DNA of 63,006 nt, taken from NCBI GenBank assembly GCA_019752535.1, contig JAIEMA010000001.1:1-63006 (forward strand). Reading direction: 5' to 3'. The position numbers and the translations under genes are program-made. Below, piece after piece: positions 51,614-53,316 of this stretch; position 1 is the first letter of the stretch, and every line of letters starts with the position of its first letter. Source of the stretch: Bacteriovoracaceae bacterium. Lineage in GTDB: Bacteria > Bdellovibrionota > Bacteriovoracia > Bacteriovoracales > Bacteriovoracaceae. The notes below the pieces were generated by a model. The model saw only the letters and a list, made by a program, of their open reading frames with translations, did not search any database and was not told the DNA's origin.

Positions 51614-51642
51614 TTGATTATTACGGAAAAGTTACGGATAGT
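51614..51642 (+). promoter_or_regulatory. umuDC promoter with a direct-repeat operator candidate
   Basis: TTGATT (51614-51619), 17 bases, GATAGT (51637-51642) make a fair sigma-70 promoter. TTACGGA occurs at 51621-51627 and again at 51632-51638, an 11-base period (one helical turn) exactly between -35 and -10. This spacing, TTAC-N7-TTAC, has the direct-repeat geometry of the alphaproteobacterial GTTC-N7-GTTC SOS box, not the TTAC-N3-GTAA palindrome reported for Bdellovibrio LexA. Confidence 0.5.
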
Positions 51643-51659
51643 GAGGTATGGAGGTTTCT

Positions 51660-52013
51660 ATGCGCGTGGCCGGTTTTCCATCCCCAGCAGATGAGTACGG
51701 ATTAGTCTCACTGTCTCTCTATGAACTCTTGATCCCAAGACCTTCGAGCACCTTTTTTGTCCGTGTCGCCGAAGATCTCGCCCCTAATGTGCGCGTGAAC
51801 GATATCTTGATCGTGGATCGCTCTCTTAAGGTGCGAGCGGATTGTTTGGCACTCGTGGTTCTGGCGGGCCAGCTGTGCTTGAGGAAAGTTCAGCAGCGCC
51901 AGAGCCTTACATGGCTAGTTCCACTCAATGGCGGACAGCCGACAGTTTTAAAAGAAGATGATGAACAATTACTTTGGGGAGTGGTCACTCATGTCATCCA
52001 TCAAACCTACTAG
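51660..52013 (+). CDS. umuD: UmuD'-like translesion accessory protein, lacking the autocleavage machinery
   Basis: A 117-residue protein that aligns with E. coli UmuD from just before the cleavage site: it starts MRVAGFPSPADEY, so only four residues precede the Gly that begins UmuD'. The two catalytic positions are lost: Ser60 (GDSM) is replaced in VRVAEDLAP by Leu40, and Lys97 (TVKK) by Arg75 in LCLRKV. It should therefore act as ready-made UmuD' for the polymerase, without RecA-stimulated cleavage. GGAGG lies 6 bases before the ATG at 51660. It overlaps umuC by 23 bases. Confidence 0.85.
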   Translation: MRVAGFPSPADEYGLVSLSLYELLIPRPSSTFFVRVAEDLAPNVRVNDILIVDRSLKVRADCLALVVLAGQLCLRKVQQRQSLTWLVPLNGGQPTVLKEDDEQLLWGVVTHVIHQTY

Positions 52014-53316
52014 GTGGGCCATTCTCGACTGTAATTCTTTTTACTGCTCCTGCGAGCGACTCTTTCGTCCGCACTTGATCGGACGTCCCGTGGCCGTGCT
52101 CTCTAATAATGATGGCTGCATGATTAGTGTGAGCAAAGAAGCCAAAGCTCTTGGGCTCAAACTTGGGGCCCCCGTCTTTGAAGTGCGAGATCTTATTCGT
52201 CGCCATCGTGTCCAAATCTTTTCTTCTAATTATCAGCTCTATGGTGATCTCTCTCGTCGAGTGATGCGCATTTTGGATGAACTCAATCCCGAAGTCATTC
52301 AATACTCCATCGATGAAGCCTTTATTAATTTCTCTCATGTGCCGGTTGGTGAAGAAGAGGCCTGGGCCCAAGAGCTCTCAAAAAAAGTTTTCCGCGACAC
52401 AGGGATTCCGGTTTCTATTGGAGTCTCTACAACAAAGACACTCGCCAAGGTGGCCAACAGAAGAGGCAAAAAATTAGGACTTAAAAGCTTCTGCCTCCTA
52501 GAGCCTCTTCAAGTGCAAAAGGTACTTGAAGAGACCGAGGTCGGTGATGTGTGGGGAATTGGGGCAGGATCAAAGGCCAAGCTCAATCTATACGGAATTA
52601 AAAGTGCGTGGGATTTTAGAGAATTTCAGAATACGCCTCTCATTCGCTCTCTTTTAACGGTTACCGGGGAGAGACTGCGTGATGAACTCAGAGGAATTCC
52701 CTGTGTAGAGCTGGCGGAAATGAGTGAAAAGAAAATGATTGCGAGCACACGCTCGTTTGGAAAACGAGTGTACGAGTGCCGAGAATTGGAAGAGGCGATT
52801 TCGACTTATGTGGGCTTTGCTTGCGAGAAGTTGCGGGCCCAGGGAAGTGTGGCCCGAGGCTTAAGCGTGATGCTGAGAACGAATCCTTTTGATCACGTGA
52901 ATACGTATTATCGTAGCGATGCTCAAACTTCACTGCCAATCTATACCAATGATACAGGCCTCTTCACGAAAGCGGCTCTCACCTTAGTGCGTGATCTGTT
53001 TCAAAAGGGGCTGGCCTATAAGAAGGCCGGTGTCTTTATTTATGACATTACCCCCAACATCGGCCGTCAGCAGGACCTGTTCCAACAAGAAGAGGAGAAG
53101 GCCCCCTTAATGGAGGCCATGGATGGAATCAATAAGCGCTGGGGACGAGGGACGATACGGATGGCTTCCTGTGGAACGGGCCAGGACTGGCGTATGCTCT
53201 CAGAGCAGAAATCCAATAAAACCCAGCTAAATTGGAATGATTTAGTGGAGGTCAGACGAGAGAGTAAAAATTACAGGCTATTCACAAAACCACCCCACAG
53301 GAATACACAGCCGTAG
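51991..53316 (+). CDS. umuC: DNA polymerase V subunit UmuC (Y family)
   Basis: A 441-residue Y-family polymerase. The metal-binding Asp is in AILDCNSFYCSCER and the catalytic pair in QYSIDEAF; helix-hairpin-helix and little-finger domains follow with DUF4113-like C-terminal RWGRGTIRMAS. A RQQDLFQ sequence near residue 360 fits the beta-clamp-binding motif. It performs translesion synthesis with UmuD'2. The ATG at 51991 is used; the frame is open upstream through the umuD end. Confidence 0.95.
   Translation: MSSIKPTRWAILDCNSFYCSCERLFRPHLIGRPVAVLSNNDGCMISVSKEAKALGLKLGAPVFEVRDLIRRHRVQIFSSNYQLYGDLSRRVMRILDELNPEVIQYSIDEAFINFSHVPVGEEEAWAQELSKKVFRDTGIPVSIGVSTTKTLAKVANRRGKKLGLKSFCLLEPLQVQKVLEETEVGDVWGIGAGSKAKLNLYGIKSAWDFREFQNTPLIRSLLTVTGERLRDELRGIPCVELAEMSEKKMIASTRSFGKRVYECRELEEAISTYVGFACEKLRAQGSVARGLSVMLRTNPFDHVNTYYRSDAQTSLPIYTNDTGLFTKAALTLVRDLFQKGLAYKKAGVFIYDITPNIGRQQDLFQQEEEKAPLMEAMDGINKRWGRGTIRMASCGTGQDWRMLSEQKSNKTQLNWNDLVEVRRESKNYRLFTKPPHRNTQP

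Follow-up and report, generated by a model that had tools for sequence, protein, structure and literature searches.

In E. coli, umuDC is derepressed when LexA is cleaved, and RecA-assisted cleavage of UmuD then yields UmuD'. A umuD-like gene of a Bacteriovoracaceae genome, located in a window of 63,006 nucleotides (the whole stretch of DNA analysed), seems to have no use for the second of these steps, and raises the question of how its product, and the polymerase encoded next to it, may be controlled. We consider it very likely that the locus is a Pol V operon repressed by LexA, and that its small subunit leaves the ribosome already in the activated, UmuD' form. The features on which this reading is based are collected in Table 1.

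Table 1. Position and properties of the features discussed in the text. Coordinates refer to the window, unless a contig or locus is named.
Feature	Position	Strand	Remarks
Divergent orphan ORF, 223 aa	50924..51595	-	intergenic region and SOS box in common with umuD'; no homologues outside the window genus and g37
Candidate LexA/SOS box TTACGGAAAAGTTACGG	51621..51637	+	direct repeat TTACGG-N5-TTACGG; also at lexA (exact) and upstream of recA (1 mismatch)
Candidate LexA operator sites (umuD'C, lexA, recA)	51621-51637; G000:C3:55748-55764; G000:C6:31132-31148		
Shine-Dalgarno GGAGGT	51650..51655	+	4 nt before ATG 51660; overlaps upstream ATG 51648
umuD'	51660..52013	+	117-aa UmuD homologue; MRVA before Gly5; catalytic Ser/Lys absent
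Leu40 codon (Ser60 position)	51777..51779	+	followed by 2-residue deletion; alignments including 1UMU, 8GMT
Arg75 codon (Lys97 position)	51882..51884	+	alignments including 1UMU, 8GMT
umuC, 441 aa	51991..53316	+	NCBIfam UmuC 4.1e-101; IMS, IMS_C, DUF4113
DUF4113 / RecA-NT motif of UmuC	53104..53253	+	E 2.0e-15; predicted RecA-binding (PMC6511836)
Two dead umuD-like genes close together, four g37 species	L172:551-1251; L180:498-1198; L185:537-1226; L193:1-1220		

A UmuD homologue starting next to the cleavage site

The protein, opening with MRVAGFPSPADEYGLVSLSLYELLIPRPSSTFFVRVAEDLAPNVRVNDILIVDRS..., matches the Pfam S24 domain above cut-off (E 2.5e-8). The NCBIfam UmuD model (PRK10276) scores 82.1 bits (E 2.9e-23), below its curated cut-off of 110 bits, and the HumD equivalog model 46.7 bits (E 2.7e-12), below a cut-off of 120 bits. 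By sequence, the closest solved structure in PDB is E. coli UmuD' (1UMU, E 3e-13), UmuD (8GMT) being also found. An AlphaFold2 model has a pLDDT of 80.8, with low confidence for the N-terminal 30 residues or so; when it is compared to PDB by Foldseek, UmuD' ranks first, with a global TM-score of only 0.60-0.65 and an rmsd of 7.9. Pfam, PDB sequence match and Foldseek all assign the S24/LexA C-terminal fold to the protein.

Translation starts at MRVA-G, four residues ahead of the cleavage Gly. The sole longer in-frame start, ATG 51648, overlaps the ribosome site and adds four residues (MEVS): no start gives more than 8 residues before the Gly, and an N-terminal arm of about 24 residues with a cleavage site is not encoded. 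The divergent ORF lies 64 nt away from umuD', and the gap holds the SOS box; together with a strong Shine-Dalgarno sequence, the box leaves no room for an arm in any frame. A longer start, or a frameshifted arm, is ruled out by this intergenic geometry, together with the presence of the same start in five species.

The arm segment GFPSPADEY of UmuD' is kept. In a model, the N-terminus of UmuD' sits near the UmuC active site, and its arm segment enters UmuC (PMC11791011). With this segment preserved, the window protein cannot be called arm-less in the sense that applies to UmuD'; its MRVA leftover, on the other hand, sets it apart from an exact UmuD', which counts against the main reading.

Loss of the catalytic pair

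In the sequence alignment, the Ser60-Lys97 dyad is replaced by Leu and Arg (Table 1). The alignment of the genus features an invariant VAGFPSPADEYG; an invariant Lys was sought in it, and none at all was found, so that an alternative conserved Ser-Lys pair is ruled out. The first-pass annotation had described this ORF as a UmuD homologue, beginning four residues before the cleavage Gly, with Leu and Arg in place of Ser60 and Lys97. The description stands: the ORF and its coordinates agree with the Pfam S24 and 1UMU matches, the start with ATG 51660, GGAGGT and the 64-nt gap, and alignment to 1UMU and 8GMT puts Leu40 and Arg75 at the two positions. The UmuD-family alignment, proposed at the time as a check, also shows both Ser and Lys replaced in the window protein, and no alternative start or frameshift, of the kind considered as a possible objection, restores a longer arm.

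The genome containing the window is a MAG of 3.49 Mb, 97.5% complete. A full-length, LexA-like UmuD, whose presence elsewhere in the genome had also been suggested for checking, was found neither in this 97.5%-complete genome nor in four sister genomes. Other S24-type matches were evaluated as a second UmuD and rejected: one is the single LexA of the genome (L001), with intact Ser and Lys, and two are weak matches (L003 and L004), the former carrying a signal-peptidase-like motif. At 97.5% completeness, a second UmuD might have escaped the assembly, although the sister genomes lack one too. The genome also encodes one RecA and two Y-family polymerases.

Conservation in the genus

The arm-less start and the loss of the dyad are common to all five species of the genus, the window and four others (L035-L038); two of the four sister-species loci correspond to Bacteriovoracaceae MAGs in GTDB (L096, L099). 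An assembly error is thus not the cause of this state. For the closest pairs in the genus, pairwise dN/dS is 0.064 and 0.077, which indicates that umuD' is maintained and not decaying, and rules out a pseudogene. Loss of the catalytic residues and divergence from UmuD might also be expected of a decaying remnant, next to a UmuC able to work without small subunit; given these dN/dS values (0.06-0.08), and the conservation of start, ribosome site, SOS box and umuC linkage in the five species, such a remnant is highly improbable.

The operon and its candidate SOS box

The umuD' and umuC genes overlap by 23 nt, as in an operon. In the UmuC protein, the DCNSFY and SIDEAF motifs are intact, and the NCBIfam match spans the UmuC model to its end; at the C-terminus, some 20 residues extend beyond the conserved tail. 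Since E. coli UmuD and UmuD' bind several polymerases (PMC5342242), and a second Y-family gene is present in the genome, the small subunit could have left Pol V, to become a regulator of DinB, beta clamp and replicase. The overlap with umuC, and a UmuC C-terminal tail intact across the model, make this unlikely, and assignment of the small subunit to Pol V is preferred.

The exact TTACGG-N5-TTACGG repeat occurs twice in the 3.49-Mb genome, only in the lexA and umuD'C promoters, and a copy with one mismatch lies just upstream of recA. For the full 17-mer, with up to 3 mismatches, 0.12 matches are expected by chance in the window alone. Throughout the family, related boxes (TTACG-N6-TTACG) precede umuDC, whether the UmuD is dead or intact. 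These direct repeats differ from the TTAC-N3-GTAA sequence reported for Bdellovibrio bacteriovorus (PMC8565304). A box shared by lexA, umuD'C and recA supports transcriptional control of umuD'C by LexA, for which binding to the box is inferred.

The divergent 223-aa ORF has homologues in two groups, both carrying dead UmuD proteins; in the g37 genomes where their place is listed, these homologues are found away from umuC.

A predicted activation pathway without UmuD cleavage

For the window system, the following pathway may be proposed. Upon DNA damage, RecA*-driven cleavage of LexA would derepress umuD'C via the TTACGG-N5-TTACGG box. UmuD' would then dimerise, its short N-terminal GFPSPADEY arm and its core engaging UmuC immediately, and RecA, bound via DUF4113, would complete the mutasome, giving Pol V activity. 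The UmuD to UmuD' step, a second RecA-dependent proteolytic checkpoint, would be gone and, with it, the arm carrying the Lon and ClpX signals in E. coli, where UmuD cleavage removes the Lon signal and the arm also bears the ClpX one (PMC5342242).

Since neither a cleavable arm nor the Ser-Lys pair is present, and a further full-length UmuD was not found in the 97.5%-complete genome, the delay imposed by the conversion of UmuD to UmuD' cannot operate, as originally anticipated. The accompanying proposal, that the system would be controlled by transcription only, is borne out in part: a LexA box is found at umuD'C, lexA and recA, while the word "only" proves too strong. E. coli UmuD'2C is inactive until RecA* transfers RecA-ATP (PMC4374754, PMC6511836); activation by RecA is probably kept here, because the window UmuC retains DUF4113, which is the RecA-NT motif (PMC6511836). 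Control is thus probably exerted by transcription plus RecA activation, and not by transcription alone.

There is about an even chance that a protein-level delay persists by another route, be it the activation by RecA*-ATP, a membrane sequestration of UmuC, or the action of another protease on UmuD' or UmuC. Such a route would not conflict with how the protein is mainly read here, and disputes only the consequence that no delay is left. The RecA-NT motif of UmuC (PMC6511836), the need for RecA transfer of E. coli UmuD'2C (PMC4374754) and the longer C-terminus of UmuC are in its favor; against it, release of UmuC from the membrane follows UmuD cleavage in E. coli (PMC4552617), which is impossible here, and no new regulatory gene was identified, the divergent 223-aa ORF excepted.

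Dead UmuD proteins in the phylum

In a GTDB scan serving as a control, seeded on two short motifs and hence not an unbiased census, 62 of the 66 loci are outside the genus, and all 62 keep Ser, Lys and upstream sequence; the other 4 belong to the genus. Among the 111 umuC-linked UmuDs of the phylum used for a tree, Ser and/or Lys are missing in 40. Most of these dead UmuDs come from genus g37, whose "GFQSPC" proteins have, in many cases, about 8 residues before the Gly; the rest belong to single lineages, in which the pair has become Ala/Arg, His/Arg or Gly/Arg. Loss of Ser60 is always accompanied by loss of Lys97 (23 of 23 proteins). In the umuC-linked, UmuD-like proteins L200, L201 and L202 (G009, G008), the conserved N-terminal region is a different one (MGREREYF...), and His or Asn stands at Ser60 and Asn at Lys97.

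When a short arm is defined as at most 9 residues by the longest possible start, 22 of 23 short-armed umuC-linked UmuDs are dead, versus 17 of 90 longer-armed ones (Fisher 7e-12, not corrected for phylogeny). Tests of arm versus catalysis on independent pairs give 3:0 in the expected direction, which is not significant. By parsimony, the dead state changes 10 times on the UmuC tree, which was built quickly and contains many weak forks; in g1 and g37 this state may go back to one origin. Two sister species both have an arm of 7 residues: G114 (L169) keeps Ser and Lys, while G113 (L168) has His/Arg. The pair suggests that the arm is lost first, and that the dyad decays afterwards.

Four g37 species contain two dead umuD-like genes close together (Table 1). 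The one adjacent to umuC starts at the core (MQDSFSLDE...) and lacks the UmuD' arm; its partner lies on the opposite strand and has kept ...LLTGFQSPCSEF (GFQSPC arm). Matches of both genes to UmuD models are weak. The two are divergent in three of these species, where they stand 75-80 bp apart with two SOS-box-like sequences between them. For the core gene, dN/dS lies at 0.05-0.07 in L172/L180 and L185/L193, its two closest pairs; for the armed gene it is 0.06 in L172/L180, most of the armed-gene comparisons being saturated. As an armless UmuD' is reportedly defective, and a single arm is used asymmetrically in the Pol V model (PMC11791011), these pairs may naturally be read as a split heterodimer.

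Comparison with known systems

With E. coli UmuD/UmuD', the window protein shares fold, operon with umuC, GFPSPA arm segment and, as a prediction, LexA control; E. coli, in contrast, makes a full-length UmuD, which needs RecA-assisted Ser60-Lys97 self-cleavage, while arm and dyad are absent here. Direct translation in a UmuD'-like form is a feature of phage proteins, and alignment shows it for the window protein too: P1 HumD and N15 gp26 start with MGFPSPA at the cleavage Gly, and the alignment shows no residue in them that corresponds to Ser60. HumD has been called a UmuD that is activated from the start (PMC7092418), and according to the same paper, citing McLenigan 1999, P1 HumD is an example of a UmuD that works although already shortened. 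A LexA site is annotated upstream of P1 humD, as umuD'C is preceded by a candidate box. HumD is, however, a phage protein with a C-terminal extension, whose gene has no umuC beside it and which keeps Lys97, whereas the window gene is chromosomal, umuC-linked and genus-wide, and has lost Lys97 as well.

The common start, the missing Ser60 and a 32% identity to HumD could speak for acquisition of umuD' from a HumD-type phage gene. This origin is improbable, considering the pairing with umuC, absent beside humD, the higher score of the UmuD model over the HumD one (82 vs 47 bits), and Lys97, kept by HumD. Derivation from a resident UmuD is preferred.

Acinetobacter UmuDAb (PMC4807011, PMC3978071) is likewise a UmuD variant encoded on the chromosome, and its N-terminus is altered in the opposite way: its N-terminal domain is required for repression, in genomes without LexA. 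Bacillus YqjX/YolD is the SOS-induced small subunit proposed for YqjW, a Y-family polymerase that carries the RecA-NT motif (PMC6511836), and belongs to a sequence family unrelated to the window UmuD'.

No report of chromosomal, umuC-linked UmuD' genes was found in the open-access literature. The kind of protein is thus already known from phages, a precedent absent from the first-pass annotation, to which the recurrence across the family was not visible either; new is its chromosomal, umuC-linked and genus-wide form, in which Lys97 is also lost, and which recurs in the family.

Implications

In the textbook view, cleavage of UmuD to UmuD' is a second lock, which holds mutagenic repair back to give error-free repair the first opportunity. 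Throughout one genus, and in several related lineages, the polymerase is retained under clear selection although this lock is missing. The purpose of the lock becomes testable, in terms of mutation rate, checkpoint and turnover, and natural uncleavable UmuD' proteins are provided.

Bacteriovoracaceae-type bacteria might have dismantled the UmuD checkpoint repeatedly, one subclade ending with a split UmuD' dimer, the predicted asymmetry of the Pol V dimer being encoded by two genes; we hold this for a serious possibility, slightly less than evenly balanced. If true, the split pair would consist of one gene with the arm entering UmuC and one bare core, and would allow the asymmetric Pol V model to be tested on a natural example.
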